The position numbers were made by a program, and so were the translations under genes. Shown here one piece after another: positions 17,561-42,003 of a stretch of 64,000 nt of DNA. The notes beneath the pieces are model-generated. The model was not told the DNA's origin. It ran no database searches and worked only from the letters and a program-made list of their open reading frames with translations. Numbering within the stretch: position 1 is the first letter of the stretch; every line of letters starts with the position of its first letter. Source of the stretch: Thermodesulfobium sp. 4217-1 (GTDB lineage Bacteria > Thermodesulfobiota > Thermodesulfobiia > Thermodesulfobiales > Thermodesulfobiaceae); NCBI RefSeq assembly GCF_039822205.1, contig NZ_JBAGBW010000001.1, positions 1 through 64,000 of the forward strand, given 5' to 3'.

Positions 17561-20239
17561 AATGGTAAAGCTGGAATCGGAACCTACAACCTCAGCGGAA
17601 CTGGCAATCTACAGGCACTGGGAACAAACGCTGGTTTTTCGTGGGAATATATAGGAGTCAGCGGAGGCACAGGCACGTTCACTCAGACAGGCGGGACAAA
17701 TACCATAACGGGCGGCTCGATGTTTGTCGGATCAGATGTTTTCGTATCGGGTGAAACCTCAACTGGCACATATAATCTCAGCGGAGGCACAATTGTTGTT
17801 ACCAGATTACTCGAAGCTTCCGGAGCTGAGCTAATAGGAGATAGCGCAGGTATAGGTACGTTCAATCAGACAGGCGGGCAAAACCTGGACAACAATGGAG
17901 TATTTATAGGATCTGACGCTGCATGGCGCTATTCTAATAAATTAGTTAAAGGAAGTATAGGCATATACAATCTTAGCGGCGGCATCCTTAACACAGGCGG
18001 AACTGCAGTAGCAGACGTTACTGCAGGAGATGGTGGCGAGGTCGTTGGCGACGCAGGAGGTACAGGGATTTTTAATCAAACAGGCGGGACAAATATAGCC
18101 ACAGATGGCGGCCTGGCTGTCGGGTCAGACATTTACGGGGCAGGTGTAGGCGGCGTAGGCACGTTTAACCTCAGCGGAGGCAGCCTTATTGCTTCCGGAT
18201 TGGTTGGCTCTATCGGCGGCGAAGTCATCGGTACATGTCAAGGAATTGGAACGTTTAATCAGACGGGTGGAACAAATACGGTCCTGGCAGGACTGTTTGT
18301 CGGGTCCCAAGTAACTTATCCTTTGGCTCCAACCAAAAATATCACGCCCGGCACAGGCACATACAATCTCAGCGCAGGTACGCTTACTGCCAGCGGGAAC
18401 GGGACTCCAGGAACCTCGGGTTACATACCCGGCGAGGATATTGGCGATGCAGGGAGCACAGGGACCTTCACTCAGACGGGTGGGACAAATACGGTCACCA
18501 ACGGCCTGCTTGTAGGTACGGACTTATTTGACTCAATTGGCGCGGGCACAGGCACGGGAAAGTACAATCTCAGCGGAGGCGTCTTGCAGGCCGATTTCGA
18601 ATGGGTAGGAGGCTCTAATGCAGGAACTTTCACCCAGACCGGTGGGATCAATATAGTTACCGGCAATAATGCCCAATACGGCATCGAAATGAACAGCGGC
18701 ACTTATCACCTAAACGGTGGAATACTTAGCACAAGCTCCATCGACGGAAACCTTGACAATGAAGGCGGGGTCTTTATGCCATCAAAAGCTGGGTCAATTT
18801 TTACCGGCAATTATATACAGGGCAAAAACTCAGCCTTGCAAATAGGAATAGCCTCGTCTAGCAACTATAACTGGCTCGAAATGTCCAACACTGGGACAGT
18901 TCAGTTCAATGGTGGCACGATAGAACCGGTGCTCCAGGGTGGATTTGTCCCTATCCCTGGCCAAACATTTGATATTATCAAGGACGCACAAAATATAACA
19001 GGCACGCCCACGGTTGCCAATTTCACAGCGACTTTGGTGGGAATAGCAGGAAGTATACCCGACCCAGGAATAACAATCAGCGCAGCTCGAAATTACACTA
19101 ACTCGGTGCTCACTCTGACACAGAATCAACGGCAGGTTGGAAATATGCTGAACGATATTTCCGCAACCACTACAGGAGATATCGGGACTGTTTTGCACAC
19201 TATCGACAGCATACCAACTTCCCAAGCCAATTCAGTTGCCAACGCCTATCAACAGATCTCACCTGATATGGCGGCCTCTTTAGCCAATCTAGGTTTTGCG
19301 GCATCCAACTTCTTCCAACAAGATATCATCGACAGAATCACAAGCGATCGATATGCCAGACTTTCAGGAGAAAATACCGGGTTCTACGGACCTAATGAGA
19401 CAAAAAAGTTAAACGGTTGGAGTTTCTATGCCGATCCACAAGTTTCCTGGGGCTCTCAGGATTCTACAGCAAACGAGACAGGTTATAATTTTTCCATTGT
19501 CGGGCTTACCGTAGGAGCAGATTACAGATTAAGAAAGGACCTGCTTGTCGGCGTAGCCAGTGGATATGCCCATACTTATGCAGGCTTCAACAATAATATG
19601 GGAAATGTGCAAAACGAAACCGTACCAATCATCCTATATGCATCTTACTTCCCAGGCAAATTCTATGCCTTCGGTTCGGCAGGATACACTGTGAACTCTT
19701 TTAACACGAATCGTCAAATCTCTTTTATCAACCGTACAGCATCTGGTTCCACAACAGGCAACATGTTGAATAGCTACGGAGAAGCTGGCTACAATCTGAG
19801 AGTCGGAAACGTTGTAATCACGCCTATGGCCAGCCTCTCATATTCCAGCATCTGGATCAATGGATTTGACGAAACGGGGGCAAACTCGCTCGATCTGCAA
19901 GTTGGTTCACAGCACGCCGAATCGCTTCAATTCAGCCCAGGCGTAAGACTTGATAGCACCGTAAAGTATGGCAAGGCTTTGGTTAAATACCAATTGTATG
20001 CGAACTACGCACACGAGTTCGCCAACGACAGCAGAAACATTAATGCTAGCCTTGCACAGGTTGGAATACCATTCAATTTCCAGTCCCAGCAATTGGGCAG
20101 AGACTTCGGAATAATTGGCGCAAATATCAATGTATATTCAGGAAAGAACTTTTCAGTGCATCTCGATTCCAACACGGAGATTGGACGCAATAATTACAGC
20201 GCGTCAATGGTCGATGCAAAGCTAAGTTTCAAGTTCTAA
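17561..20239 (+). pseudogene. Autotransporter, 3' part: remaining passenger repeats and C-terminal beta-barrel
   Basis: This continues in the same frame after the TGA for 892 codons. The passenger repeats run to about 18,750, then comes a linker (NDISATTTGDIGTVLHTIDS, AYQQISPDMAASLANLGF) and an autotransporter barrel of about 280 residues starting near WSFYADPQVSWGSQ and ending with the typical terminal strand AKLSFKF and a C-terminal Phe. The barrel would insert in the outer membrane through BAM and export the passenger. The barrel looks intact. An internal ATG at 17720 could start a shorter product, but without the signal peptide it could not be secreted. So the gene is functional only if the TGA is an assembly error, is read through, or reverts. 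Confidence 0.8.
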
Positions 20240-22729: not shown

Positions 22730-23728
22730 ATGAATAGAAAAATGACTTTTTGCGAGGAATGCAGAAGAGATGTTAAATATTCGGTAGAAACTGCATTGAT
22801 CAAGGCAAGGCTCAAAGGTAAAGATTATGAATACTCTGGAAAAAGAGCTGTATGCAAAGAATGTAAGAGTGAGATTTATGTAGCTGACATAGAAGACGAA
22901 AATCTTAAGGCACTATATGATTCTTATCGCCAAAAAAACAACATTATTTCGCTGGAAAAAATATTGGAAATTCCTAAAAGATATAATATCGGAAAACGTC
23001 CGCTTTCATTGCTTTTAGGCTGGGGTGAAATGACTTTTTCGAGATATTGCGATGGAGATATGCCCACAAATCAGTATTCAGAAATTCTTCAAAGAATTTA
23101 TGATGACCCTGCGTATTATAAAGAATTATTGGATAAAAATAAAGATAATTTAAGATCATCTCATACATATGAAAAAAGTAAACGAAAGGTGGATGAGCTG
23201 CTTGGAAAGCAAGCAAACTCGGGATCAAAGTTAGATTTGATAATTCAATATATGCTTTATAAATGTGAAGACATAACCCCACTGGCTTTACAAAAAGCTC
23301 TATATTATGTTCAGGGCTTTTATTATGCCTTTGAAAAAAGATTTTGTTTTGACGATGATTGTGAAGCATGGGTTCACGGGCCGGTTTACAGAGATATATA
23401 CAACAAATATTCGTCCTATAAATTTGATCCCATTGAAAGCATTGGAGATTTCGACGAATCGGTTTTTACAACTTCAGAAAAAGCTATATTAGACAGTGTC
23501 ATTAAAAACTTCTGCTGTTATAGCGGAAACACACTGGAAAGGTTTACCCATCTGGAAGAGCCATGGTTACATATCAGAAGTAAATTGCCTGTAGGAATGA
23601 ATTCCAATATTATAATACCCAAAGAATTGATCAGTGGATACTTTATCGCAGTGAAAGAAAAATTTCATATGCTTACCCCTGGAGATATAGAAAAATATTC
23701 AAAGGATATTTTCAAACAAGTAAATTAA
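22730..23728 (+). CDS. Antitoxin-like protein: YgiT-type zinc finger, HTH and SocA/Panacea (DUF4065) domain
   Basis: A 332-residue protein with three parts. Residues 1-50 carry two CxxC pairs (C8/C11 and C42/C45) of the YgiT/MqsA zinc-finger type. A helix-turn-helix region follows (RPLSLLLGWGEMTFSRYCDGD, 86-106). From about 160 a SocA/Panacea-like domain runs with ITPLALQKALYYVQGFYYAF and EAWVHGPVYRDIYNKYS. Proteins of this design act as antitoxins that neutralise diverse toxins and repress their operon. GAGGAGGTG precedes the ATG. It sits 30 bases after the broken toxin, so it is now an orphan antitoxin or is kept for another reason, such as anti-addiction. Confidence 0.85.
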   Translation: MNRKMTFCEECRRDVKYSVETALIKARLKGKDYEYSGKRAVCKECKSEIYVADIEDENLKALYDSYRQKNNIISLEKILEIPKRYNIGKRPLSLLLGWGEMTFSRYCDGDMPTNQYSEILQRIYDDPAYYKELLDKNKDNLRSSHTYEKSKRKVDELLGKQANSGSKLDLIIQYMLYKCEDITPLALQKALYYVQGFYYAFEKRFCFDDDCEAWVHGPVYRDIYNKYSSYKFDPIESIGDFDESVFTTSEKAILDSVIKNFCCYSGNTLERFTHLEEPWLHIRSKLPVGMNSNIIIPKELISGYFIAVKEKFHMLTPGDIEKYSKDIFKQVN

Positions 23729-23997: not shown

Positions 23998-24087
23998 TGT
24001 TAATGGTACTATAAATTCCCCAGGTAGGGAGCGTTTAAATTCCCCACAATAAAATATAAAATACCTCCTATGTTAGGAGGTAAAAAT

Positions 24088-25539
24088 ATGAAGGAGATTT
24101 GTATGTACTATTCAGTAAAGAGTATGTTGGACTTAGGCAAGAATATATCTCAAATAGCACGTGACTTGCATTTGGATAGAAAGACCGTAAGAAAGATAAG
24201 GGACAAGATTAAATCAGAAGGAATAAAACCACCTATTATAGAAAGAAAGAGTATTTTAGATGATTATAAAGATTTTTTGCTTAACGGTCTTCAGAACAAA
24301 CTAAGCGCTAGGCTTATGCATCAGAAACTCTTGGAAGAAAGGAATATTTCAATAAGTTATTCTGCTGTAAAAAGATATGTAGCAAAGTTAAAAGGTCCTA
24401 ATTTTCCATATATGCCTGTAATTACACCACCAGGACAAGAGGCGCAGGTGGATTTTGGATATGCAGGATACTTTGAAAAAAATGGAAAGAAGGTTAAGGT
24501 CTGGATATTTTGTATGAAACTCTCATCAAGTAGATACTCTTATTATGAGCTTGTTACTAACCAGAGCGTTTCTGTTTTCATAAAGTGTCATATAAACGCT
24601 TTTGAATTCTTTACAGGAGTTCCCAGAGTAGTCAGTATAGACAACCTAAAATCAGCGGTTCTAAAAACAAGCTTTTATGAGCCATTAATCCAAAAAGAAT
24701 ATGCAGCACTTCTCCAACACTATAATTGCGAACCAATAACCTGCAGACCAAGGACACCAACAGATAAGGGCAAGGTAGAGTCTGGCATTAAGTATGTTAA
24801 AAATAATTTCTTAAAGGGTCTTGACACAAGAGATTATTATGATGCTTCAGAAAAACTAAAATATTGGATTAATAATATCTGCAATACAAGACTTCATGGG
24901 ACAACAAGAAAAATACCTAAAAATGAATTTGAAACAGTAGAAAGAATGCACCTTACAGCTCTGCCTCTTGAAAGATATGAAATTGTTGATATTCAAAAAA
25001 GGACTGTTAACGCTTACTCCCATATATCGTACAAATACAACTACTATTCTGTACCAAGAGAATATATAGGACAGGAGCTTACAATAAAATCAAATGGTTC
25101 TTTGTTAAGAATATATGATAAACACTTAAGAGAAGTTGCAGTCCACTCGATATCTTTATCTCAAGGTGAATTCATAACAAACAAAATTCACAATCCAAAG
25201 TTAGAACACTTTTTATCAAGGCCATATGAATACGAAGAAAAGATGAGAGAAATTGGTAAAGATGCCAAAGATTTTTTCTTCAAATTAAAATCTTTAAAAC
25301 CTAATAGTTATCATAGAATTATCTCTGGCATACTACACCTAAAAGATATATACAGCAATGAAGTTATTAACCAATCTTTAAAAAGAGCAAATCTCTATGG
25401 CATATATAACTATCTATCCATAAAGAAGATAATTCAGGAAGGTATATACAACAATAAAGAGACCAGTGGTATTTGTTTAGCAGGTGGTTTTGCTAATGAC
25501 TTATCAATCTACGATAGGCTTACAAGAGGTCAAGAGTGA
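24088..25539 (+). CDS. istA: IS21 transposase IstA
   Basis: The DDE transposase of the element, about 483 residues. An N-terminal helix-turn-helix (GKNISQIARDLHLDRKTVRKI) binds the ends. The catalytic core shows QVDFGYAGYF (first Asp), VVSIDNLKSAV (second Asp) and PTDKGKVESGIKYVK (Glu). ATG 24088 is preferred over the in-frame ATG at 24070 because AGGAGG lies between them at the right distance. The stop overlaps the istB start. Confidence 0.93.
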   Translation: MKEICMYYSVKSMLDLGKNISQIARDLHLDRKTVRKIRDKIKSEGIKPPIIERKSILDDYKDFLLNGLQNKLSARLMHQKLLEERNISISYSAVKRYVAKLKGPNFPYMPVITPPGQEAQVDFGYAGYFEKNGKKVKVWIFCMKLSSSRYSYYELVTNQSVSVFIKCHINAFEFFTGVPRVVSIDNLKSAVLKTSFYEPLIQKEYAALLQHYNCEPITCRPRTPTDKGKVESGIKYVKNNFLKGLDTRDYYDASEKLKYWINNICNTRLHGTTRKIPKNEFETVERMHLTALPLERYEIVDIQKRTVNAYSHISYKYNYYSVPREYIGQELTIKSNGSLLRIYDKHLREVAVHSISLSQGEFITNKIHNPKLEHFLSRPYEYEEKMREIGKDAKDFFFKLKSLKPNSYHRIISGILHLKDIYSNEVINQSLKRANLYGIYNYLSIKKIIQEGIYNNKETSGICLAGGFANDLSIYDRLTRGQE

Positions 25540-26267
25540 AAGATATAATAAACAAACTATCAAAGCTAAAACTTCAAGGTATAGCAAAATCTATAGAAGC
25601 AAGAAATGCCTTTGCAATTGAATCTAATTTAAGCTATATAGATTTTTTGTCTCTATTAATAGAAGATGAATTTACCAACAGACAGACTAATTCTTATAAA
25701 AAGAGATTTTCAAGTTCAAAGCTTGATCCTAATAAAACACTTTTAGATTACGATTTCCTCTATCAACCAGAACTAAATAGAAAAATGATATTGGATCTAT
25801 CTTCTTGCAATTACATTAAAGAAAAGAAGAACATAGTGTTTATGGGTAATCCAGGAGTAGGAAAAACTCACCTTGCAAATGCTTTAGGCATAGAAGCTAT
25901 AAAGCTTGGATACAAAGTTATTATGATACACACGAGCGATCTTTTAAACAAACTCTTAATTGCAAAAGGAGATGGTACTTATTACAACACTTTAAAAGAT
26001 CTACTCGATGTTCATCTATTAATTATTGACGAAATAGGGTTTAAAAGGATAGATACAAATGCAGTAGATGAGTTCTTTGAAATAATAAGAAGGAGGTATG
26101 AGAATGGCTCAATTATAATAACCACGAATAGACCGTTTGAGGAATGGGCAAATGTATTTGGGGATGCAGTTCTCGCATCTGCTATAGCAGATAGAATCAT
26201 ACACCACTGCTATGTTTTTAAAATAACTGGTAAGAGCTACAGGATGAAGGAGTTGATAAAAAAGTAA
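25536..26267 (+). CDS. istB: IS21 helper ATPase IstB
   Basis: A DnaC-like AAA+ ATPase of 243 residues that assists IstA in target selection. Walker A is MGNPGVGKTHLANALG, Walker B LLIIDEIGF, and sensor/arginine elements IITTNRPFEEW and IADRI follow. GTG 25536 overlaps the istA stop (GTGA), implying coupled translation. The protein is complete. Confidence 0.93.
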   Translation: MKDIINKLSKLKLQGIAKSIEARNAFAIESNLSYIDFLSLLIEDEFTNRQTNSYKKRFSSSKLDPNKTLLDYDFLYQPELNRKMILDLSSCNYIKEKKNIVFMGNPGVGKTHLANALGIEAIKLGYKVIMIHTSDLLNKLLIAKGDGTYYNTLKDLLDVHLLIIDEIGFKRIDTNAVDEFFEIIRRRYENGSIIITTNRPFEEWANVFGDAVLASAIADRIIHHCYVFKITGKSYRMKELIKK

Positions 26268-26364: not shown

Positions 26365-29300
26365 GTCGCAATCCCTTATTCTTCAGGGAATTCTTCTAAC
26401 TAGGCCGCTTGTTAGAGTTGGAGCCACGTGGGTAAGTCGCAATCCCTTATTCTTCAGGGAATTCTTCTAACCGTGGTTTAAGGAAGAAGACCCATTTAGT
26501 GTAGTGCCCTTTACGTCGCAATCCCTTATTCTTCAGGGAATTCTTCTAACAAAATGTTGTCTTATTTACTACAGGGGGCAATATCCCGTCGCAATCCCTT
26601 ATTCTTCAGGGAATTCTTCTAACTCGACGGTAAAGAGGTTTTAAGCCTGCCATACGTGGGTAGGTCGCAATCCCTTATTCTTCAGGGAATTCTTCTAACA
26701 AGGATAGTAGCACCGGTAAAAATGTTATCCTGTTTACTACCGGGTCGCAATCCCTTATTCTTCAGGGAATTCTTCTAACTAGAAATGATGAGTAAGGGAG
26801 AAAGATTTGTAGTATTCGAGTCGCAATCCCTTATTCTTCAGGGAATTCTTCTAACAAGCTCTACAGGTAAAAACATAATTTTATTCACAACAGGGGGGTC
26901 GCAATCCCTTATTCTTCAGGGAATTCTTCTAACTAAACGGGGAGGTAAACCTATACAGGTTAAACGAAATGTTAGTCGCAATCCCTTATTCTTCAGGGAA
27001 TTCTTCTAACTGGTCCATATAAGGCCAGCTGTCAAGGTTGGAAAATGGACAAGTCGCAATCCCTTATTCTTCAGGGAATTCTTCTAACCAGGGCTTTTAT
27101 TCAAAAAAAATTTATGGGAGGTTTACAGTCGCAATCCCTTATTCTTCAGGGAATTCTTCTAACCCTGGGGTGGCAGTGCCTTTTGTAGGGGCACTGGAAG
27201 CCTTGTCGCAATCCCTTATTCTTCAGGGAATTCTTCTAACTTGGGAGGACCTTCTTAATTTTTGTAGTGTGGAAGGCTATGTACCTTAGTCGCAATCCCT
27301 TATTCTTCAGGGAATTCTTCTAACGAATTTTAAAAAACTTGCCATCGTAATTGATGGCAAAGAAGTCGCAATCCCTTATTCTTCAGGGAATTCTTCTAAC
27401 CAGGACTTTAAAAAAAAAAATATATGGGAGGCAATAAAAAGTCGCAATCCCTTATTCTTCAGGGAATTCTTCTAACTTAAAAATGGACTTAGTGAGTTTG
27501 AAGAAGAGTGTGAGAAAGTCGCAATCCCTTATTCTTCAGGGAATTCTTCTAACTTGACGAATTTGAAAAAGGCAGTGAAAAAGGCCGTATCTCTCTGGTC
27601 GCAATCCCTTATTCTTCAGGGAATTCTTCTAACATTCTCTCACCCATGCAATGAAGGGGGCATTGCATGTCGCAATCCCTTATTCTTCAGGGAATTCTTC
27701 TAACCTAACCATCAGTGCTCCGTATATGATAGGGACGAGTAAAAAGTCGCAATCCCTTATTCTTCAGGGAATTCTTCTAACCTTTTTTGCTTTGCGTTCG
27801 GTATATAAGAAGACACAGCCAGTCGCAATCCCTTATTCTTCAGGGAATTCTTCTAACTTGGTAGAATGTTGGCAGGTTCAAAAAATTTTGAAAAGTCGCA
27901 ATCCCTTATTCTTCAGGGAATTCTTCTAACGGGAGTAGTTTTTATCTTGGGGGAAATTTCCCCAGATCTACAGGTCGCAATCCCTTATTCTTCAGGGAAT
28001 TCTTCTAACCAAAAATCGAAAAAGGGAGGTCAAAAATGTATGCAATTTTTGTCGCAATCCCTTATTCTTCAGGGAATTCTTCTAACGTACTGTGTTGATT
28101 TAAAGAACAGTCCCACTGATAAAGTCGCAATCCCTTATTCTTCAGGGAATTCTTCTAACCGTTGGGACCAAGTGGGTTACCACTTGGTTCAGAGAGGATA
28201 ATGTCGCAATCCCTTATTCTTCAGGGAATTCTTCTAACTGTTACATGCAATTTTTGAAGGTAATGAGGGCCTTATTTATTGTCGCAATCCCTTATTCTTC
28301 AGGGAATTCTTCTAACCTCGTTAGTGTAGGAACCACGTGGGTTACCACGTGGTTCGTCGCAATCCCTTATTCTTCAGGGAATTCTTCTAACTCTACATAA
28401 GGCCAGCAGTAAAGGTAGGAGCCAGGTGGACAAGTCGCAATCCCTTATTCTTCAGGGAATTCTTCTAACGTTCCAGGACCCAGACAGAGTCTGGGTTGAT
28501 GATGCCTGGAAAATAGTCGCAATCCCTTATTCTTCAGGGAATTCTTCTAACGGGACTCGGTTGAGTCCCTGTTCTCAGAATAGATAGAATAGGTCGCAAT
28601 CCCTTATTCTTCAGGGAATTCTTCTAACAGTGGAAGTGGAAAGAATACAATCCTGTTTACCACTGGGGGGTCGCAATCCCTTATTCTTCAGGGAATTCTT
28701 CTAACAGATCAAAAAAGTAAGGTCAAGCACAAGATATCTTGACAAAGTCGCAATCCCTTATTCTTCAGGGAATTCTTCTAACCTTCTATGTCGGTACGAG
28801 GAAGAAGGGGGATGTGCATCACAGTCGCAATCCCTTATTCTTCAGGGAATTCTTCTAACCCCTTTTGAGTTTGAGGTATTTAAAGCTGTAAAGGTTGAGG
28901 TGTCGCAATCCCTTATTCTTCAGGGAATTCTTCTAACAGGTTAAACAATGAAAAACGATGCAAAAGAGATGAAGGAATTGTCGCAATCCCTTATTCTTCA
29001 GGGAATTCTTCTAACTGTGTTCCTTAAAAGTGTTTGGGGCAACCCGTTTGAATGTTGTAGTCGCAATCCCTTATTCTTCAGGGAATTCTTCTAACCAAAT
29101 TCAAAAGAGAAAGAAATGAAAGAAATGGTTATCATGATTGGTCGCAATCCCTTATTCTTCAGGGAATTCTTCTAACATGGGATTTTGCAGGATTTCAATA
29201 CGCCCCAGGTAAGTCGCAATCCCTTATTCTTCAGGGAATTCTTCTAACAGGCCCCATCAGGGGCCTTGGAGTCTATAAGCAAATAGACTCGTCGCAATCC

Positions 29301-30165
29301 CTTATTCTTCAGGGAATTCTTCTAACAGTAAAGGGGGTGGAGTATGAAATTTGCAAGTTAACCCCCGTATAGTCGCAATCCCTTATTCTTCAGGGAATTC
29401 TTCTAACAATAAGAGGGAAGGGGGGATATACCTGGTCTCACAGAGTCGCAATCCCTTATTCTTCAGGGAATTCTTCTAACTTGCTACCAGCCCTGCATTA
29501 CTGCAGGGCCTACCCCCTGTCGCAATCCCTTATTCTTCAGGGAATTCTTCTAACTGTGTAGATTAGTTGATTTTACCGAATTGGTCCCCGTATAGTCGCA
29601 ATCCCTTATTCTTCAGGGAATTCTTCTAACTCAGGCCAGTAGTAAAGATTGATGCCAGGTGGGTTACCATCTGGTCGCAATCCCTTATTCTTCAGGGAAT
29701 TCTTCTAACAGGTTGTAACAACTTGGTTCCTTGAAGAAAATTTATGTCGCAATCCCTTATTCTTCAGGGAATTCTTCTAACAAGCCGTGTTTAGATTTGG
29801 AAATGTATTTTGAGGTTTTCTTTGTCGCAATCCCTTATTCTTCAGGGAATTCTTCTAACCAGGTGGATAACCTGGCTCCAGGACCCAGATAGGTTCTGGG
29901 TGTCGCAATCCCTTATTCTTCAGGGAATTCTTCTAACGGTCAAGTGTGAACGATCTGAATCAGATCGTTAACGATTTTAGTCGCAATCCCTTATTCTTCA
30001 GGGAATTCTTCTAACTGCTGTATGGAGTTTTTGAAGGTCATGAGGGTCGTATTTATTGTCGCAATCCCTTATTCTTCAGGGAATTCTTCTAACCTATGGG
30101 AGGCGTAGTCCATACACTTCCCATAGAAGGTCGCAATCCCTTATTCTTCAGGGAATTCTTCTAAC
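26365..30165 (-). CRISPR. CRISPR array, 50 repeats of 36 bp and 49 spacers
   Basis: I count 50 repeats of 36 bp that appear identical, starting GTCGCAATCCCTTATTC and ending GAATTCTTCTAAC on the + strand, with 49 spacers of 35-46 bases (mean about 41). On the minus strand the repeat ends GGGATTGCGAC, the analogue of the ATTGAAAC 8-base handle, so crRNAs are read leftward from the leader on the right, next to the cas genes. The repeat holds a small TCCCT/AGGGA stem. No degenerate terminal repeat exists at the left (old) end. Many spacers contain perfect hairpins and several fall into related families; see findings. Spacer length and the adjacent csm genes fit type III-A. Confidence 0.98.
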
Positions 30166-30468
30166 TGTACACATCATAAACCTTTATTTATCAATAGTCA
30201 AACATACGAAATCCTCGAAAGGGGTGGGTATGATTTTCTATCATAATTTTCAACAATACCATACCCCAATCTGTAGCTTTATTAAGCCAAAAAATTTTCC
30301 TCGGATAAAAACGAATTTAAGCCATTTTTTAATACTCAATGGGATACCAGTATACAGTTAAAATAATAACGTTATTCAATTGTCAAGGTGCTCTTTTTAT
30401 CTAAATTTTAATATAGCATATTATCTTGTAAAATAACAATATCTTTTTCGAACAATAAACATGATTAT
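30166..30468 (-). promoter_or_regulatory. CRISPR leader with pre-crRNA promoter
   Basis: This 303-base AT-rich stretch lies between the newest repeat and the 3' end of the cas operon. On the minus strand TTGACA (30381-30386) is followed by a TATTTT/TTTTAA-like hexamer 15-17 bases on, placing a start near 30345 and a leader transcript of about 180 bases before the first repeat. The -35 lies in ATTCAATTGTCAAGGT (30374-30389, + strand), which is repeated exactly in the cas6/WYL intergenic region. On the + strand the same block holds TTGTCA with TAAATT 16 bases on, a possible opposing promoter. Confidence 0.6.
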
Positions 30469-31158
30469 TTAAGAAATCCCATCTGAAAAACAGCAAAAAT
30501 TAGAAACAGAACAACATTTACAGGCATATGGATGAATTAGTCCATTAGGTATAAAGGTTTTATTCTCCAAAATATCCTTAACGCTTTCAATTACCATTAA
30601 TGTTTTTTCTTTCATTTCATTTGAAATCTGAGTTTTATAAATAACTACTCTTTTATCAGAAATATAATGCAACTCTACCCTATCTATGTTTGTCAATATA
30701 GAATAAATTGAGGTTTGAATGATATGAGAACTTGTTATATTAGATGGAATTCTAGTGGTAGTTTTAAAGTCTATTATAGAATCCTCAGTAATAGCATCTA
30801 CGATGCCCTGAAACCTTATATTACCAATATCCATACTAAATGCTTCTTCAGAAGAGATTACTTTTAAATCTCTGGCAAATGGTTCGTAAAGCCTAAGCAT
30901 AGCAAACAAATTGTTTTTAATTTTATCCTCTTCAAGCACTGACAAAGTCAATGTCTCTGGATTATAGTATCGGTATTCTTTCCATGAACTTTCTAGGTCA
31001 AAGCTGTTTGTTTTAAAAAATCTTGATAGAGTGAAATGAAATGCTGAACCTGCAACAGTATTAATATTGAATTTTGGTTGAACCTTATCTATATACTTTA
31101 ACCTATATGCATACGAACAGGTTAATAAAAGATTTAAAGACGAAGGACTTAGATTCAT
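30469..31158 (-). CDS. cas4: Cas4-like PD-(D/E)XK nuclease with cysteine cluster
   Basis: A 229-residue RecB/Cas4-family nuclease, the last gene before the leader. SPSSLNLLLTCSYAYRLKYI provides the N-terminal Cys (C14) seen in Fe-S nucleases. GSAFHFTLSRFF holds the active-site His, FQGIVDAI and SIIDFKTTTR the Asp and Asp-x-Lys of the nuclease motif, and IIQTSIYSIL the QxxxY motif. Three or more cysteines at the C terminus (CKCCSVSNFC) complete the probable [4Fe-4S] site. Cas4 proteins trim prespacers and set their orientation and PAM. Type III systems usually lack Cas4, so its place in this adaptation group is notable. It may be closer to AddB-type nucleases than to classical Cas4. Confidence 0.75.
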   Translation of the reverse strand: MNLSPSSLNLLLTCSYAYRLKYIDKVQPKFNINTVAGSAFHFTLSRFFKTNSFDLESSWKEYRYYNPETLTLSVLEEDKIKNNLFAMLRLYEPFARDLKVISSEEAFSMDIGNIRFQGIVDAITEDSIIDFKTTTRIPSNITSSHIIQTSIYSILTNIDRVELHYISDKRVVIYKTQISNEMKEKTLMVIESVKDILENKTFIPNGLIHPYACKCCSVSNFCCFSDGIS

Positions 31159-31184: not shown

Positions 31185-31433
31185 TTAATCCTTATCTATA
31201 CTTGATGGGCACAACTTGTAAGGTTTTACGTTTATAGCATACATGGTGCCAAGGCAATCGTAGAAACAAATTTTGTTAAATGTTGATTGCATTTCTCCTT
31301 CATAAAAACATATAAGCGCAATATTTCCCTTATAGCTAGCATTTGCAGTTTTTAATTGGCTTGAACTTAAGAAAAAAGTAACCAAAAAAAATACAGCCAC
31401 CAACAAAAATATAAATTTAGTGTTGTTTGTCAT
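31185..31433 (-). CDS. Small exported cysteine-containing protein inside the cas operon
   Basis: An 82-residue protein with an N-terminal signal peptide or anchor (FIFLLVAVFFLVTFFLSSS, likely cleavage after TANA). The mature part of about 50 residues contains four cysteines (ICFYEGEM, KICFYDCLG, YKLCPSS), suited to two disulfides. GGAGG precedes the ATG. It sits between cas2 and the cas4-like gene in the same orientation. Small secreted proteins with a C-YDCLG core occur scattered in diderm genomes with no known function as far as I can recall. A role in CRISPR adaptation is hard to reconcile with export, so it may be a passenger. Confidence 0.65.
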   Translation of the reverse strand: MTNNTKFIFLLVAVFFLVTFFLSSSQLKTANASYKGNIALICFYEGEMQSTFNKICFYDCLGTMYAINVKPYKLCPSSIDKD

Positions 31434-31483: not shown

Positions 31484-31777
31484 TTACAAGATATCGTATT
31501 CAGAAAGTTCTTGAGGGACACCGTTGCCCAAAACAGAAATTGCAGACTTACAACGCTTACAAAGAAGATATATCCTTACTGAGTCAGTGTCTGGATTAAT
31601 TCTCTTCATTATTTCTTTATTTAATCTAATTAATTCTTTTTCTGTAAGATAACATTCAAACACGCTTTTTTGGACCCTTGTCCCTTTACCCTCCAAAAGC
31701 TTAGCTATCTTATAGCGTTTTTTGTTATCAACCACATCATAAGAAATTACATAGAATGAATAAGAGCTGATATTCAT
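31484..31777 (-). CDS. cas2: CRISPR-associated endoribonuclease/adaptation protein Cas2
   Basis: A 97-residue Cas2. The ferredoxin-like fold begins FYVISYDVVDNKKRYKIAKLL with the conserved Asp, followed by GTRVQKSVFECYLTE. It forms the dimeric core of the Cas1-Cas2 integrase. Its ATG overlaps the cas1 stop (ATGA). A 50-bp gap separates it from the small exported protein gene. Confidence 0.95.
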   Translation of the reverse strand: MNISSYSFYVISYDVVDNKKRYKIAKLLEGKGTRVQKSVFECYLTEKELIRLNKEIMKRINPDTDSVRIYLLCKRCKSAISVLGNGVPQELSEYDIL

Positions 31778-32808
31778 TGTCTTTGGGTAAAGGGTTGATA
31801 AAATTCATTTTTACTTATACACCTTACAAATATCTTACATTGTTCTCTTATCACCTGAAAAAGATTAATATTGTTTCCCAGAGTGCTTATATATTTACTC
31901 TTCTCTAAAAGTTCCTGAAAATATGTTATTGCTTTCTTCACCCCTTCAATGTTTAAATATACCGCCTCAACACTGTATATGTCTTTTCCTGAACTATCTT
32001 CGACATATTCTTCTTTATACCAAAAATCTTCAGAAGAAAAGATGTTTTTATTAATCAGTCTTAATACCAAACCATCAATTAATGCCCTAAATTCTTCCAT
32101 TAGATCCAGAGCCAAAGAGGGTTTTGAATAATCTACAGTATGGAAAAAACCTAAATATGGGTCAAGACCACATTCATACAACGCTGATTCAACCCTTTGA
32201 TATAGCAAAATATACAGAAAACTCAGTAGCGCATTAATAGGGTCAAGGGGCGGCCTTTTATTTCTACCGAAAAATTTGAATTCTTTGTGGATAAATAGAT
32301 TTGATAGGGCATCAAAATAAATTGCTGCTATCTTTCCCTCAATACCTCTAATCTGTTCAATATCGTCTATAAACTCGAGTTTTGTGGCCAAAGATTTTAT
32401 TTTGCTAATACAGTCTTTAACCTTATCATTGCGTCTGTCCCAGTTATATCTTTGAAGAAGATGTCTACAGTTATTTGCCTTGCTAAAGACAATCTTCTTT
32501 GCAAATTCTGTCGCAAAATTTCCATCTAAATATAGCTTGAACTGCATAATTCTAAGCTCAACATTTTTTGGCATCTGACCAATCAGTCTGCCTCTATATA
32601 CTCCTTTAGAAGATAAGAAAACAGTGTCAATGTTATTTTTCAAAATATAGTTTATAGCATGTGGGGTAAAAGATGCGTTTGCCATAACCACAATACTCTC
32701 GATTTGACTGGACACAAAACTTCTTACAAGCTCTGAACCTCTATAAATATCAAACCTATCAGCGTCTTTGTGGATCCTTGTTCCGTGCTCTACAATATAA
32801 AGTATCAA
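31774..32808 (-). CDS. cas1: CRISPR integrase Cas1
   Basis: The metal-dependent integrase that inserts new spacers, 344 residues. The active-site Glu lies in RGIEGKIAAIYFDAL, the His in LGFFHTVDYSKPSLALDLMEEFR, with the acidic residues of DLMEEF completing the site. The N-terminal beta domain carries VEHGTRIHKDADRF. The start is TTG at 32808, overlapping the stop of the upstream primase gene (four bases). That overlap means the primase and Cas1 are made in step. It is complete and typical, not fused to reverse transcriptase. Confidence 0.95.
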   Translation of the reverse strand: MILYIVEHGTRIHKDADRFDIYRGSELVRSFVSSQIESIVVMANASFTPHAINYILKNNIDTVFLSSKGVYRGRLIGQMPKNVELRIMQFKLYLDGNFATEFAKKIVFSKANNCRHLLQRYNWDRRNDKVKDCISKIKSLATKLEFIDDIEQIRGIEGKIAAIYFDALSNLFIHKEFKFFGRNKRPPLDPINALLSFLYILLYQRVESALYECGLDPYLGFFHTVDYSKPSLALDLMEEFRALIDGLVLRLINKNIFSSEDFWYKEEYVEDSSGKDIYSVEAVYLNIEGVKKAITYFQELLEKSKYISTLGNNINLFQVIREQCKIFVRCISKNEFYQPFTQRQ

Positions 32809-34667
32809 TTCTCACTCGAATCTGAAAGTTGCAATTTGTTTTCCTCATCAATAAAGACCTTGTAATTGCCAATCTGTCTTTCTCTCATATCTATTTTTCT
32901 TAGCTCATCGATAACAAAATTTAAAGCTAAGTTATATGCAATTTCTATTTCTTCCTTCTTTTTTGACAGATCAATCAACCTCAAGATAACCGCATCCAAC
33001 TTTGAAAAATTTTCTTTCTTATACAGATGGATCAAAGGGTTTGGGTATGTGGATATTTCTTTCATATTAAAGCATTCCGAACAGTAATTGGATGTAATAT
33101 TTGGGATAAGGTTTTTAATTTTGTTGCAACTCATAGGATTCGAACGAAGAGGCTTTTTAAGATAAAGTCTTGTATCTATCACGCCTGCTTTGTTTAAAAG
33201 TTCATTAACAATAAAATTTCCAAATTTCAAATTGCCAAGCGTAAATGTAATAACCTGTATTTCTGCAACGTCTAAGCCAATCCCGCTAAAAGCTTTATCA
33301 CAAAGGATACCAAGAACAGGGCAGCAACTCCTTAAAATTAGGTACTCTAAATCTTCATCTATTATGAATTCTTTAGGTTCTGAATATTTTGCTTCTGGGG
33401 GAGCTAAAACTTTTACGTCTTCATCCGAAATAACTCTATCAATTTCATTTGCTATTTCTTTTTCAAAATTTTTATTCAGCGATAAGTCCAAGTTGCCTAT
33501 CTGAAAGCTATCTATAAAATTTTTTAGTTTTTCTCTATCGTTTAACTTGACATCCATCAAAAACATAAGCTGATTTTCTGGTTCTGTTCCATCGGGATTT
33601 AAAAACATACTTCTTCTTCCAGATTTTATATGTATCCCTAAAGGTAATTTTACAAGATTTCCAAGCCCGCCACCTTTTACAAACGTTTGCTTTGGGAATA
33701 GCTCTATATTTATTTCCTTGGGTAAGTTACCTAACTTAGAAATTACATAGTTTCCAAATTTTTTCGCTTTGTGAGCCTGAATCCCCTGTTTCAAGAAAAT
33801 CCAAACATGTCGACCCTTGTAACCAGAATCCTCTATATAAGCCAAAATATCTAATGAAGCACAGATATTGTATATCTCCTGCGCAGTGTTTAATAACAAA
33901 GAATCTATTCTTTTTCTTTCGGCTGGTTTCTGAAAATAATCTGCAAGCTTCGACTTCTCAACGTCTATATCAAAAACGATAAAACATACGCTATTGTCAA
34001 TTCTTAGCTGATACGCTCCCACAGTAAGATTGCCTAATATATGATTCTTGGCTACTCCAATAGTAAAGGGTTCACTTATCGGGGAATATCCTTGATCGCC
34101 CTTTGCATTTTTCCACTGGCGGGCATACACCCCTTCTCTTCCTCTAAAAAGCTGCAAAAATTTTAAGATATGTCTGTCTTCTGGATCAAGAATTTCTTTC
34201 TCATCATCTTCTGATACAGCACCATAACTTTTTTCCCTGTCCTTTATGAGAGACTTAAAAATAGGTTCTCCTGTTATGTCTAAAGCTTTTTTATAGACTT
34301 CAATCGCAGCTTGAGTCTTGTCTTGCATTTCGAGAAAAGAGCCATATCTAACATATAGTTCAGATTCATTTGGGAGATTATCTATGGAATCAATATACAA
34401 TTTTTCAGCTTTATCAAGTCTGGAATCTTCTACATAAAGATCAGCCATGGCAAATATTGCCTTCAGATTCTTCTGGTTATCCCTAATTGAGAGTTCTAAT
34501 TCTTTTTCGGCAAGGGGTAATAGCTCAAAGCAAAGCAAGATCTTGTACATCTCAAAATGAAGGTCTGAATCCTTTACCTCCACAAAGGGGGCGCATGAAA
34601 CAATAGCATCATACGCCTCCCTCTCCTTCCCATTAGAAAATAGTTCAACTATCTGTGCAGGTTTCAT
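32805..34667 (-). CDS. CRISPR-associated primase-polymerase with TPR N terminus and PriL-like cysteine region
   Basis: A 620-residue protein. Residues about 40-135 form TPR-like helices. From about 165 an archaeo-eukaryotic primase (AEP) domain follows: FDIDVE (D233, D235) is the hhDhD catalytic motif, SGYKGRHVW (281-289) the SxGxHVW nucleotide motif, IELFPKQ (321-327) the third acidic motif, and GNLVKLPLGIH (336-346) the closing strand. The C-terminal third has cysteines at 448/449, 456, 514, 529 and 532 (SCCPVLGILC; PMSCNKI; YCSEC), spaced like the Fe-S domain of the large primase subunit PriL. Such CAPP enzymes make and extend primers and have been tied to spacer acquisition with Cas1-Cas2. 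It overlaps csm5 by 23 bases and cas1 by 4. The PriL comparison is inference. Confidence 0.8.
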   Translation of the reverse strand: MKPAQIVELFSNGKEREAYDAIVSCAPFVEVKDSDLHFEMYKILLCFELLPLAEKELELSIRDNQKNLKAIFAMADLYVEDSRLDKAEKLYIDSIDNLPNESELYVRYGSFLEMQDKTQAAIEVYKKALDITGEPIFKSLIKDREKSYGAVSEDDEKEILDPEDRHILKFLQLFRGREGVYARQWKNAKGDQGYSPISEPFTIGVAKNHILGNLTVGAYQLRIDNSVCFIVFDIDVEKSKLADYFQKPAERKRIDSLLLNTAQEIYNICASLDILAYIEDSGYKGRHVWIFLKQGIQAHKAKKFGNYVISKLGNLPKEINIELFPKQTFVKGGGLGNLVKLPLGIHIKSGRRSMFLNPDGTEPENQLMFLMDVKLNDREKLKNFIDSFQIGNLDLSLNKNFEKEIANEIDRVISDEDVKVLAPPEAKYSEPKEFIIDEDLEYLILRSCCPVLGILCDKAFSGIGLDVAEIQVITFTLGNLKFGNFIVNELLNKAGVIDTRLYLKKPLRSNPMSCNKIKNLIPNITSNYCSECFNMKEISTYPNPLIHLYKKENFSKLDAVILRLIDLSKKKEEIEIAYNLALNFVIDELRKIDMRERQIGNYKVFIDEENKLQLSDSSEN

Positions 34668-35715
34668 TTTTTTCGGTTAATATCGCATAGCCCAATGGCA
34701 GCATTTTATTTTTTAATTTAACCAAAAATTTTGTCTTGCCAGGCTTTATCTCCTTGCCACAACTCTTAACTGTATAGCTTAAATTTCCACAACCAAACCC
34801 AAGCCTTAGGAGATAACCTTTTTCCTTTTCGATATCTGTAAAAAAACTTTCATCAAAGCCTGGATATACGCGTTTATAGTAATAGCTCTCTTTCTTTAAA
34901 AGGCCCCTATAAAACTCATCTGTTTTTTCGAGTAAACTTTTTAGATTCAAAACTTTTAATTCTTTTTTTAGCCTGGGCATCCCGAAACCTCCACTACCCC
35001 AACGATCTCTTAAATTTGTTTTAATCGAAATAGTTAAAAAATTATTTTTCTCTTTATCCGGGACGATAATCTCTCTTACTATAGGAATTCCATTGCCTTT
35101 TGGGCCTACCCTACTCATCTCTACTACCTTAGTTTTATTTGATACAGAGACATCAGCTATGCTAACAAACTTAAAAGGATCATTTATAGGATTTTTTAAA
35201 TTTCTTTCATCATCTTTTTCTAACATAAGGTTTCTTCCTTGTAAACTGTGATTGTAATCCTCACCACTATATTTCTCCGATAAAAAGTTTAGAAATGCAG
35301 TCCTAATAGCGCCTTTGATCGAGGAGCCTGGAATTATAATGTCGTCCCCTGATCTAAGTGTAAGACCAATTTGCATCTGTGCATCCGGATTAAAATATTT
35401 TTCTGGAAAGCTATTCTTAAGATTATCCTCAATTTCTATGTAGTATATATAATCATCATTATTTATATCAAAGATGTCATTGATATTTTGTGCAATAGTC
35501 TTAATATTTAGTTTTGAAACGTCTTCTTTTATTATTCTTTCCTTCAATCCTCCTCTCTCAAGAAGTTTAAAAAAGCTATCAGATGAAATCCTATAAAGTC
35601 TTTTGTCCTTATAGACATAATCCATTGGATCTATATCCTCTCCAGTACCTATGTGGATAGGAGAAAGGATTTTCAAACTATAAGTCTTGGTTTCAAAAAT
35701 TTCTCTTTTATTCAT
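34645..35715 (-). CDS. csm5: Type III-A RAMP protein Csm5
   Basis: The crRNA 3'-end capping subunit of the Csm complex, 356 residues. LKILSPIHIGTGEDIDPMDY at the N terminus and PGSSIKGAIRTAFLNFLSEKY are Csm5 hallmarks: a RAMP fold with its glycine-rich loop. The C-terminal LRLGFGCG segment is also typical. GAGGTGG precedes the ATG, which lies within the end of csm4 (8-base overlap). Its 3' end overlaps the primase gene, so effector and adaptation genes share one transcript. Confidence 0.88.
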   Translation of the reverse strand: MNKREIFETKTYSLKILSPIHIGTGEDIDPMDYVYKDKRLYRISSDSFFKLLERGGLKERIIKEDVSKLNIKTIAQNINDIFDINNDDYIYYIEIEDNLKNSFPEKYFNPDAQMQIGLTLRSGDDIIIPGSSIKGAIRTAFLNFLSEKYSGEDYNHSLQGRNLMLEKDDERNLKNPINDPFKFVSIADVSVSNKTKVVEMSRVGPKGNGIPIVREIIVPDKEKNNFLTISIKTNLRDRWGSGGFGMPRLKKELKVLNLKSLLEKTDEFYRGLLKKESYYYKRVYPGFDESFFTDIEKEKGYLLRLGFGCGNLSYTVKSCGKEIKPGKTKFLVKLKNKMLPLGYAILTEKNETCTDS

Positions 35716-36649
35716 TTTGCCACCTCACATAAAGGGGAAAAAGCAATGAGCACTCGTGTACAAAATCTATACTGCTATGAATATTGTCCTTCACTTTGCC
35801 ATATGCAATACTTGGCTGGCCATCTTCTTTTAGTATAAAAAGCGAACCAGGCTTAAAGCTTACTGTAGGCCTCTTAAAGGGATTATAACTAATATTATTG
35901 CCAACTTTCCCGAACTTAATATCCACATCATAAAAACACCTTTTAAATTCTGATACTTTCTCAAAACCGTGAGAAAGCGTTACAAAAGAATTAGGATTCT
36001 TTGAATCTGGCAAGTTTGCATCTGAAATATCAAATTCAAATCTACCTCTTCCAACTGATGCATCTGCACCATAACCATTTTCCCCTATAAATTTAAATAT
36101 TTTTTCTATATATGGCTTATCAAAAACTGACTTTACGTATATTACAGGTATAGGTTTTCCCTTAAAATAGCTGCATTCCTTTGAAAAAAGCATCCCCATT
36201 TCGACATTGCCAGTTACTCTGTTTATACTGCAGTGCCACTCATCAAATTTTATAAAATAGTTATCTATACTATCTTGCATACTGTCTTTATTAGAAAAAT
36301 AGGTTTTAAAATTTTCTAAAAATGCATCAAAGCTCTCTTCTAATTTTTCGTATACAGAAATTGGTATATATTTTGCTTTTTTTAGCTTCTTTAGATCAAT
36401 GTCAGATTTAGTTTTATCAAAATCTTTAATAATGCCAGGATGTCTTGGTATAGGAAGATAGCCGTCTGGGAAGGCATCAGAAACTATAATAGGAAAATTA
36501 CCTCTTTTATACTCTGCTAAAAAGTTTTTTAGTTCAGATTCCCCTTTTAGAAATCTAATCGCCCAGCATATATGCCCCCAAATGGTGTCTGATCTTAATG
36601 GAGTCTGAAAAAGCGAGAGCGGTTGAAGGCTTATCTTAAAAAGATTCAT
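35708..36649 (-). CDS. csm4: Type III-A RAMP protein Csm4
   Basis: The subunit that binds the crRNA 5' handle beside Cas10, 313 residues. SLFQTPLRSDTIWGHICWAI at the N terminus is the Csm4 signature, NRVTGNVEMGMLF and GYGADASVGRGRF the middle and glycine-rich loop. The ATG at 36649 is chosen over one 33 bases upstream because GAGAGGTGA precedes it at good distance. It overlaps csm5 by 8 bases. Confidence 0.88.
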   Translation of the reverse strand: MNLFKISLQPLSLFQTPLRSDTIWGHICWAIRFLKGESELKNFLAEYKRGNFPIIVSDAFPDGYLPIPRHPGIIKDFDKTKSDIDLKKLKKAKYIPISVYEKLEESFDAFLENFKTYFSNKDSMQDSIDNYFIKFDEWHCSINRVTGNVEMGMLFSKECSYFKGKPIPVIYVKSVFDKPYIEKIFKFIGENGYGADASVGRGRFEFDISDANLPDSKNPNSFVTLSHGFEKVSEFKRCFYDVDIKFGKVGNNISYNPFKRPTVSFKPGSLFILKEDGQPSIAYGKVKDNIHSSIDFVHECSLLFPLYVRWQNE

Positions 36650-36690
36650 TGATATCACCTCTCTTTGTAAGAAACTTAACAATATTTTAT

Positions 36691-37362
36691 TTATAACCTT
36701 ATTGATTTTAGATCTATTTTTTCCCCATTCTCATCCCTTAGATCTCTAAATTCTATTCTTCCATAACCCCTTGAACCACATCCACCTAAAGAATCATTTT
36801 CTAACAATTTCAGTCCCCTAAGGAGAATTTCCCAATATTTTTCGCCATCTTCTTTAAATTTCCTGAAGCTTAGAGAAAAATCGAACTCTGCCCCCGCAGG
36901 GATTCTCTCTACTGGCCTTGGATGTTCCGCCTTTGCAGTGCATCTGTTTATAACATTTTCGTATTTTATTTCAGTAAACTTGACTATATCTCTATCTTTA
37001 AGCCATTTTTTCGTATCTTCAGTCAAAAATGCGTCTCTAAAAATTGCTCTAGAAACCCTTGGTGAGTTTGAGTCAGCCTCAATTCTATCAGACGCACTAA
37101 CTCCAAATATATTACAAATAGGACAATCAATATCCGTACACGAGTGAGTCTTTCCGTTGTTTATAACTTTACCCTGTTCCCACTCAAGTATAGATCTCAC
37201 CTTGCCCTTAATAGAAGATCCTGGTATATATGGTTCATCGTTGTATGGGTTCCTGATAACTGGATTATCGTTACCCCCTATTTCCACAGAGCCAGTGCTG
37301 GTTCCAACCCTTAAGCCTGTTACACAATAAATTTTTCCTGTCAAACTCTTATATGTTAACAT
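36691..37362 (-). CDS. csm3: Type III-A RAMP protein Csm3, target RNA nuclease
   Basis: The backbone subunit that cuts target RNA every six bases, 223 residues. EIGGNDNPVIRNP holds the catalytic Asp (D32). PGSSIKGKVRSILEW is the glycine-rich RAMP loop, CTDIDCPICNIFG a zinc-binding insert, and RAIFRDAFL the downstream signature. AGGAGGTG precedes the ATG. All key residues are present, so RNA cleavage should be functional. Confidence 0.93.
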   Translation of the reverse strand: MLTYKSLTGKIYCVTGLRVGTSTGSVEIGGNDNPVIRNPYNDEPYIPGSSIKGKVRSILEWEQGKVINNGKTHSCTDIDCPICNIFGVSASDRIEADSNSPRVSRAIFRDAFLTEDTKKWLKDRDIVKFTEIKYENVINRCTAKAEHPRPVERIPAGAEFDFSLSFRKFKEDGEKYWEILLRGLKLLENDSLGGCGSRGYGRIEFRDLRDENGEKIDLKSIRL

Positions 37363-37381: not shown

Positions 37382-37912
37382 TTAGTCTTTTGCATAAGCA
37401 TAAAAATATGCATAAATTGCTTCAAATTCCATAGCAAATCTTTTCAATGCTTCGTTAACTTCTTTTTCATTTTTACAAAGAAATATGCCTCTCTCTAATA
37501 TTCCAAGCAAATATTTCTTGGCAGTTTCAGCTATCAAAAAACCGTTGCCTGATTTTCTATTAGCCAAATAAATCACTCGTGCTTGCAATAGCTTTAGCCT
37601 AAATATTATATTGTCAACCTCAATTCTTTCATCAGAGAAAGATTTCTGAAGAACCTCATCTCTTAAACTAATCACCTGATCGTAGAATTTTCTTAGCTGT
37701 GATTTGCCTAAATCTTTGCCACCATCACCTGCCAATTTTCTTGCAAACTCTTCTGATTTTTTCAAAAACTCATCAGGATCTTTATAAGAAAATTCCACAA
37801 AATCATTGTTATCTCTAGCACTTGATTGCTGAAAATTTTGCCTAGAATTTGATTGCTGCCCATTTGGTCTTTGGGCACTTGAAACATTAGGTCTGTTTGG
37901 TTTATAAGGCAT
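37382..37912 (-). CDS. csm2: Type III-A small subunit Csm2
   Basis: A helical small subunit of 176 residues that lines the target-crRNA groove. The KSQLRKFYDQVISLRDEVLQ and ARVIYLANRKSGNG segments are typical. It is longer than most Csm2 because of an N-terminal 35-residue Asn/Gln/Ser-rich, probably disordered tail. GGAGG precedes the ATG, two bases after the cas10 stop. Confidence 0.88.
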   Translation of the reverse strand: MPYKPNRPNVSSAQRPNGQQSNSRQNFQQSSARDNNDFVEFSYKDPDEFLKKSEEFARKLAGDGGKDLGKSQLRKFYDQVISLRDEVLQKSFSDERIEVDNIIFRLKLLQARVIYLANRKSGNGFLIAETAKKYLLGILERGIFLCKNEKEVNEALKRFAMEFEAIYAYFYAYAKD

Positions 37913-40752: not shown

Positions 40753-42003
40753 ATGCAAAAAGCAAAGGCAATGATAATAACATTAGGTGGAACAATAGAA
40801 CCTGTAATAAAGTCCATCAAGAGCCACAAACCGAAATATATTTCTATTATCGCAAGCCAGGAATCTATAAATCAAATTAGTTCTATATCTCAAGAAATAA
40901 AAAGCCCTAGTACAAAAATTAAAAAATTTATCATTGACGATCACCAATCTATTGAAGAGACTTTTTGTAAGGCAAACGAGGCATACGATTGGATATCTGG
41001 CTATGCAGCTCCCGAAGAAATAGTAGTTGACTTTACTCCTGGCACAAAAGCAATGTCTATAGGACTTTTTTTGGCTATGTCTAATAAAGGAGTGAAGTTT
41101 TGTTATATCGGCGGGAATAAAAGGACAAAAGAAGGAGTTGGCGTAGTCGAAAGCGGCCACGAAGAAATAATAGAAATAAAAAATCCGCTCGAGACTTTCC
41201 AACAAGATAAAATTAATCAATTTGTGGATTTTTTTAATTCCCAGCTCTTTGCGGCAGCAGACAGAGTTCTGGAAGAAATTATAGAAAACACAAACAAAAA
41301 AACTCTTTTCAAGGCTATAAGAGAGATCAACAAAGGCTTTTATTTCTGGGATCTCTTCCGCTACAAAGAAGCTATCAGATGTTTTAGGCCTACAGTAATG
41401 GAAAGAATATTCGAAGAAAAGAAATTTAAAGACCTTTACAACGCTATCGAAAATAACAGAAAGTTTCTCGAAGTGATATCCAGCAGCACAAACAAGTTTA
41501 AAAACTATTCCCTTGAGCTTTTTTCCGATGTATACGAAAATGCACAAAGGAGGGCAAGAGCAGGCCACTTTGACGATGCAGTGCTGAGACTTTATAGGCT
41601 TACCGAGATGATTGCTCAAGAAAGATTGAAAGCCAGATATAGCCAGGACAGCTCCACAGTTAACTTTGACACTCTCAAGATATCTGAAGAAAAAAGATTT
41701 ATTTGGAAGGAGACTTATAGAGGGAAGAAAGGGCTCGGACTTAACGCGATATATGATCTCCTGTATGACTTGAATGACGAGCTTGGGATAGCATTTCAGA
41801 ATAATAAGGAATCTTTTAAAAAAGTTCAAGACTCGAGAAACCTCTCCTTCCTTGCTCACGGCATACAACCTTTAGATGAAAAGACATATACAGAAATAGA
41901 TGGTTTTATTAGAGAAATATTTATATCAGAGCTCAAGATTGGCCTAATAGATGAAAGAGCAGTGTTTCCAAAAATAGATAAAAACATTTTTACAGACATT
42001 TAG
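40753..42003 (+). CDS. CARF-HEPN ribonuclease, TIGR02710-like (Csm6-type effector)
   Basis: A 416-residue ancillary effector. The N-terminal Rossmann-like CARF domain (MIITLGGTIEPVIKSI, VVDFTPGTKAMSIGLFLAM) should bind cyclic oligoadenylate made by Cas10. The C-terminal helical HEPN domain has RNLSFLAH (R362 to H369), an Rx6H variant of the RNase motif. Activation would give non-specific RNA cleavage. GGAGG precedes the ATG. It is transcribed away from cas10 and converges on the next effector gene with a four-base overlap of stops. Confidence 0.85.
   Translation: MQKAKAMIITLGGTIEPVIKSIKSHKPKYISIIASQESINQISSISQEIKSPSTKIKKFIIDDHQSIEETFCKANEAYDWISGYAAPEEIVVDFTPGTKAMSIGLFLAMSNKGVKFCYIGGNKRTKEGVGVVESGHEEIIEIKNPLETFQQDKINQFVDFFNSQLFAAADRVLEEIIENTNKKTLFKAIREINKGFYFWDLFRYKEAIRCFRPTVMERIFEEKKFKDLYNAIENNRKFLEVISSSTNKFKNYSLELFSDVYENAQRRARAGHFDDAVLRLYRLTEMIAQERLKARYSQDSSTVNFDTLKISEEKRFIWKETYRGKKGLGLNAIYDLLYDLNDELGIAFQNNKESFKKVQDSRNLSFLAHGIQPLDEKTYTEIDGFIREIFISELKIGLIDERAVFPKIDKNIFTDI

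Follow-up and report, generated by a model that had tools for sequence, protein, structure and literature searches.

Type III-A CRISPR systems of the Marinitoga piezophila type combine a Cas10-Csm effector and Cas1-Cas2 with a CAPP of type A1, whose TPR and AEP domains belong to the adaptation module; the CAPPs that have been assayed use RNA templates poorly (PMC8211822). Type III systems containing a reverse transcriptase are suspected of recording RNA parasites, and their spacers are without RNA-virus match (PMC5513706). Here, we analysed a type III locus on a 64,000-nt stretch of DNA from Thermodesulfobium sp. 4217-1 (hereafter the window). The host genome has a size of 2.0 Mb and encodes dsrA, and the stretches that we read have a G+C content of 0.30-0.37. 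Three sister species were among the genomes searched; beyond these, the genomes searched are related to the host no closer than by belonging to the same domain. The locus comprises the following features:

26365-30165, minus strand: CRISPR array of 50 identical 36-nt repeats and 49 spacers of 35-48 nt
30166-30325, minus strand: leader, conserved next to the host's second array (contig C29) and next to the array of a sister species
30469-31158, minus strand: PD-(D/E)XK nuclease, Cas4-like, below the NCBIfam cut-off
31484-31777, minus strand: cas2
31774-32808, minus strand: cas1
32805-34667, minus strand: CAPP type A1 primase-polymerase (TPR and AEP), no RT domain found
34645-35715, minus strand: csm5
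35708-36682, minus strand: csm4
36691-37362, minus strand: csm3
37382-37912, minus strand: csm2
37915-40653, minus strand: cas10/csm1
40753-42003, plus strand: CARF-HEPN protein (Csx1-like)
42000-43454, minus strand: CARF-HEPN protein with a Csx3-like C-terminus
43490-44425, minus strand: Cas6-like protein, weak match below cut-off

The CRISPR system itself is of a known kind. It has cas10/csm1 together with csm2-csm5, as required for type III-A, and TPR and AEP domains adjoin cas1-cas2, as in CAPPs (NF040561, above cut-off). The nearest solved relatives of this CAPP are PDB 7nqd and 7nqf, which match across the AEP domain, and a contig scan with the CAPP as query returned a sister MAG as the sole match. 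The Cas10-Csm effector, Cas1-Cas2 and the TPR and AEP domains of the adaptation module are shared with the Marinitoga piezophila type, from which the locus differs in that the window spacers are dominated by one hairpin-rich, sense-only coding source (PMC8211822). Likewise, it has in common with RT-Cas1 systems, which take up spacers from RNA, the type III affiliation, spacers unmatched in DNA virus collections and a possible RNA source; in contrast to those systems (PMC5513706), no reverse transcriptase is fused or adjacent to cas1, and a search of all four genus genomes for RVT_1 gave no match.

Several neighbours of these genes were also recorded. The protein at 42000-43454 joins a signal-activated RNase and a possible ring nuclease in a single chain, and an 82-aa ORF without family match (31185-31433) lies between the Cas4-like gene and cas2. 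On the left side, an IS21-type transposase pair (Mu-like integrase and IstB, 24070-26267) abuts the old end of the array. The window further encodes a Panacea (SocA-like) antitoxin domain with an MqsA-like stretch (22730-23728) and an autotransporter protein of 839 aa with a beta-domain (17720-20239).

The right flank of the array was assigned as leader because the sequence recurs in conserved form next to other arrays of the genus. On the minus strand, the window repeat ends in ATTGCGAC, an end that it shares with a type III repeat from Thermus; 26 Thermus plasmid records contain the latter repeat. Given the leader on the right and this repeat end, the array is most likely transcribed from right to left, yielding crRNAs complementary to the plus-strand spacer sequence. 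Considering this polarity and the nearly exclusive sense orientation of the spacers described below, the crRNAs would be complementary to the transcript and thus antisense to the message of the source, as targeting by type III-A complexes needs.

An earlier note on this DNA had claimed that the window spacers are enriched in perfect inverted repeats, and had proposed dinucleotide shuffling as a test. The enrichment survives this test. Requiring loops of at least 3 nt, we found perfect stems of at least 7 bp in 12 of the 49 spacers, compared with 1.16 expected from dinucleotide-preserving shuffles (highest of 300 shuffles, 4). For stems of at least 6, 8 and 9 bp, the counts were 18, 9 and 3 of 49, compared with 4.8, 0.24-0.30 and 0.06 expected, respectively. 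The earlier count of at least 14 spacers with 7-11 bp stems was slightly too high, since two of the stems (27950-27963 and 27877-27892) need loops shorter than 3 nt to attain 7 bp; the hairpin at 29949-29969 exists, but its stem measures 9 bp with a 3-nt loop instead of 10 bp. RNA folding of six example window spacers gave z values from -3.0 to -5.6. An Rfam search of the window array returned no match.

The same excess was observed in the other arrays of the genus. The second array of the host genome on contig C29 contains 91 spacers (L033:1-6987); of two sister species, one carries an array with 93 spacers, 92 of them distinct, and the other an array with 51. We pooled 283 spacers from these four arrays, named w (window), c (C29), a and b (sister species). 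Stems of at least 8 bp occurred in 28 of the 283 spacers (9.9%; 2.4 expected), namely in 9 window spacers (0.30 expected) and in 6, 7 and 6 spacers of the other three arrays (0.90, 0.59 and 0.35 expected). The 92 repeats of the C29 array differ slightly from the window repeat; the array addresses the same two target genes and has at least four instances of the shared hairpin site. It adjoins a 1089-aa ORF with an HKD/SNF2-type helicase (L033:7819-11088, C3a139 model) followed by a DUF4391 protein, which together resemble another defence or DNA-processing module. In the sister species G003, one orphan copy of the exact repeat (L031:8480-8514) is likely the remnant of a lost array; this genome has no match for cas10 or CAPP.

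Natural DNA does not account for the hairpin excess. In random spacer-length pieces from the rest of the window, 8-bp stems occurred in 1.2%, compared with 18% of the window spacers, and pieces of genus DNA in general gave 0.5-1.2%. The corresponding rates were 0.7% for MS2, 3.0% for Qbeta, 0.9% for phiX174 and 2.0% for M13. An origin of the hairpins by chance or base composition is contradicted by both the shuffles and these natural sequence controls, and we consider it ruled out for practical purposes. None of 45 type III spacers of Thermus thermophilus contained a stem of at least 8 bp, and 2 of 63 spacers adjoining other cas10 loci did, a weak excess in a small control set. One unrelated type III array (L071:30-2003), whose minus-strand repeat end ATTACGAC resembles that of the window repeat, has stems of at least 7 bp in 3 of 26 spacers; a source like that of the window array may exist for it as well.

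To a large part, the spacers share a coding source. Many plus-strand spacer translations are diverged versions of the same peptides: among the 283 spacers, 115 pairs were homologous at a score of at least 35, compared with 0 in shuffles. From these we derived two composites of the source peptides, which are stitched from different variants and are not real sequences. The first reads MLYAVFEGKDGLIYIRPVVRVGARWVTTWFMEDDPDRVWVDDAWKILQASSIDDLQDCLANTPRDIDLVEDYTPV followed by a stop, and the second MKEFKKLTVLIDGQEVLSLPYSGKESSTGKNVILFTTGGNVPVVVNNEIVNEFRGPIVGLGVYEVLN with the alternative middle EFEVFKALKIEILDSLVKDFNTPQ. Together they represent two short ORFs of about 525 nt, to which 22 of the 49 spacers in the window array and 42 of the 91 on C29 map in sense (0.4 and 1.0 expected from shuffles). 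Judged from sequence, two short coding stretches thus account, in diverged variants, for about half of the spacers in both host arrays. Substitutions between homologous spacers numbered 218, 139 and 523 at codon positions 1, 2 and 3, a bias which indicates real genes under purifying selection. Shine-Dalgarno-like motifs were found 58 times in sense and 4 times in antisense orientation. Antisense matches to the composites were mostly palindromes; the true exception is spacer c84 (L033, near 6384-6418), a clear antisense match to the second target gene, the other mapped spacers being sense.

If sampling were even, the element would measure about 1.1 kb. The true size may exceed about 1 kb, through hot spots of sampling or because several elements are involved, as overlaps were much rarer among the unassigned spacers (11 pairs versus 102). 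Among the 70 unassigned spacers, 23 contain Shine-Dalgarno-like motifs in sense and 2 in antisense, which argues that part of the remainder probably comes from an untranslated stretch upstream of each gene. The following window spacers illustrate the hairpins and their relation to the two genes:

Spacer 26, 28317-28355, plus strand: LVSVGTTWVTTWF; 11-bp W hairpin at 28330-28355
Spacer 24, 28160-28202, plus strand: VGTKWVTTWFREDN; W hairpin site with A-U replacing C-G
Spacer 43, 29631-29673, plus strand: RPVVKIDARWVTI; W hairpin site with G-C
Spacer 46, 29860-29901, plus strand: RWITWLQDPDRFW; two hairpins
Spacer 28, 28470-28515, plus strand: FQDPDRVWVDDAWKI; nested hairpins
Spacer 5, 26700-26743, plus strand: KDSSTGKNVILFTT; second gene of the source, site common to spacers 3, 7 and 30
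Spacer 13, 27325-27364, plus strand: NFKKLAIVIDGKE; second gene, hairpin covaries with spacer 45 of the C29 array
Spacer 38, 29249-29290, plus strand: GPIRGLGVYKQID; second gene, two hairpins
Spacer 25, 28239-28280, plus strand: LHAIFEGNEGLIY; start of the first gene, of which spacer 48 (30016-30057) carries the same stretch from another variant

Hairpins recur at the same codons across variants. The W hairpin follows the pattern CCAnGTGG, loop, CCACnTGG, and its variable pair is A-U in w24 and c7, C-G in w26, c15, c69 and c76, G-C in w43, w46 and c73, and G.U in c18. In the SLYSES hairpin, a G-C pair is replaced by A-U between two species (a26, b40), and further compensatory pairs were found in a35/a47, w13/c45, c5/c64, c12/c86 and c72/c91. 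Over all homologous pairs, 34 of 52 double changes at stem pairs stayed Watson-Crick, compared with 30 of 150 with slid partners. These compensatory changes are what an RNA-structured source should leave. The five-sequence W alignment alone provides a modest control, as 15 of 500 shuffles reached its covariation score, and the covariation argument rests for this reason on the whole ensemble.

Single changes in stems distinguish the strands. We counted 33 G.U against 8 A.C mismatches, and 22 against 2 in stems of at least 7 bp; compared with the composition-based expectation, this asymmetry has p values of 0.006 and 0.0009, although the counts are not independent. G.U is thus tolerated and A.C is not, on a single strand, as expected for structure selected in the sense-strand RNA and unlike a DNA hairpin. 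The mean folding z was only slightly stronger for sense than for antisense (-0.97 versus -0.81, p 0.04), and one-mismatch stems inside single spacers were too few for telling RNA from DNA. Of the earlier proposal that the system samples palindromic targets such as terminators or the hairpin repeats of one element, the single hairpin-rich family is borne out. Terminators and a repeated element were rejected, since many hairpins lie inside ORFs at homologous codons and are structures within coding RNA, kept by compensatory changes.

The hairpin excess is caused by the target and not by the adaptation machinery. The note had alternatively suggested that adaptation prefers or creates hairpins, and a Cas1-Cas2 complex with CAPP could do so, for example by self-priming, given that a primase-polymerase is present and that some stems end exactly at spacer edges. 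However, stems reach the 5' edge of spacers about as frequently as the 3' edge, so self-priming from one end is not indicated. Nineteen spacers touch the W hairpin, of which 9 contain it whole and 10 cut it, with 7.6 whole hairpins expected at random. Moreover, homologous hairpins with compensatory substitutions are shared between spacers that were acquired independently from different variants and even in different species, which means that the source already had them. Together, these observations make a hairpin-preferring adaptation highly improbable. An early impression that variants have exact spacer boundaries in common was dropped, as spacer starts were without significant clustering (9 coincident starts versus 6.9 expected, and 7 versus 4.2).

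The recorded parasite is undescribed in all collections searched. Neither an IMG/VR search nor searches of GenBank phages and plasmids with the composites found the source, and the degenerate W pattern gave 11 matches in IMG/VR, 0 of them with homologous context. Pfam and PHROGs searches with the composites returned no match. Among the spacer translations, read by eye and with about half of the spacers unassigned, no RdRp motif was recognised, and among spacer-derived sequences no levivirus or other RNA-virus hallmark protein. Because the source sequence was not found, its strand, size and genome type are deduced from the spacers alone. The diversity of the targeted protein family and its typical bacterial Shine-Dalgarno signals would be expected if the spacers came from a chromosomal gene family of the host or its community, for self-targeting or gene regulation. 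Against 386 genomes including the host and the sister species, however, the composites matched nothing outside the arrays themselves, which leaves such an origin with hardly any probability.

On balance, we favour by a little the view that the spacers sample, at random and from the sense strand, a hairpin-packed, variable element family whose hairpins are kept by selection. A small or very narrowly sampled, extremely variable family would have attacked the genus repeatedly. Its coding RNA would be packed with short selected hairpins, which would explain why a 41-nt spacer often holds one, and crRNAs antisense to its message would serve the type III-A complex.

An undescribed RNA replicon is the most likely source, at roughly even chances, given the sense-strand RNA structure within coding sequence, the strong divergence, the apparently small size and the lack of the element in DNA collections. 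An RNA source would have to be copied into DNA without a recognisable reverse transcriptase, for which the CAPP or a host polymerase are candidates. More tentatively, the replicon could measure about 1 kb to a few kb, carry at least two tiny structured genes and be acquired from RNA via the CAPP module without RT; we consider this version somewhat doubtful, because no RVT_1 match was obtained and RNA is a poor template for the CAPPs that have been assayed.

Somewhat doubtful in our view, but still a serious candidate, is a virus or plasmid of this genus with a DNA genome, double-stranded or small single-stranded, in which a few short genes are strongly expressed as highly structured mRNAs. Spacers would then be taken from DNA via the DNA-dependent CAPP, and selection for mRNA-binding crRNAs would leave mostly sense spacers, a course of events that we hold to be just as doubtful. 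The absence of RVT_1 from the four genomes of the genus, the DNA dependence of CAPPs (PMC8211822) and the true antisense spacer c84 are in line with this origin, and transcript targeting by type III systems alone yields sense selection. It is less compatible with half of the 140 spacers of the window and C29 arrays falling on about 525 nt, with a hairpin density far above that of phiX174 and M13, and with the lack of a homologue in viral, phage or plasmid DNA collections; pervasive selected mRNA structure would also be unusual.

Returning to an RNA replicon, known RNA elements resemble the proposed source in part. Obelisks are characterised by a circular RNA of about 1 kb, a rod-like fold and the Oblin-1 protein. 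Hot-spring Obelisk-like replicons are small, highly structured RNAs of thermophilic, acidic habitats, and no CRISPR spacers matching them are known (PMC13096302). The described RNA is an unbranched 867-nt rod with one ORF of 213 aa, whereas our source, compared by description, would have hairpins that form locally and two or more short ORFs (PMC13096302). The hot-spring riboviruses HsRV and HsPV, described without matching spacers, are RNA viruses that infect thermoacidophilic bacteria and have Shine-Dalgarno motifs ahead of their genes, as in the source when compared by description (PMC10847044); in contrast to them, no RdRp motif was recognised among the spacers of the window system. Leviviricetes (MS2, Qbeta) are positive-strand RNAs with hairpins inside coding sequence, like the proposed source, but MS2 and Qbeta show perfect 8-bp stems 3 to 14 times less often than the spacers do.

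Many spacers of type III systems lack an identified origin. In this case, the genes, strand, variability and RNA structure of the recorded element become visible from the spacers alone, whose hairpins and W and G signatures can serve for probing metatranscriptomes from warm and acidic habitats with sulfate reduction. This makes directly testable whether type III systems without RT record RNA parasites. If so, the CAPP or a host polymerase would act as a reverse transcriptase in CRISPR adaptation, and the replicon may be an RNA virus or viroid-like element infecting Thermodesulfobium-like bacteria.
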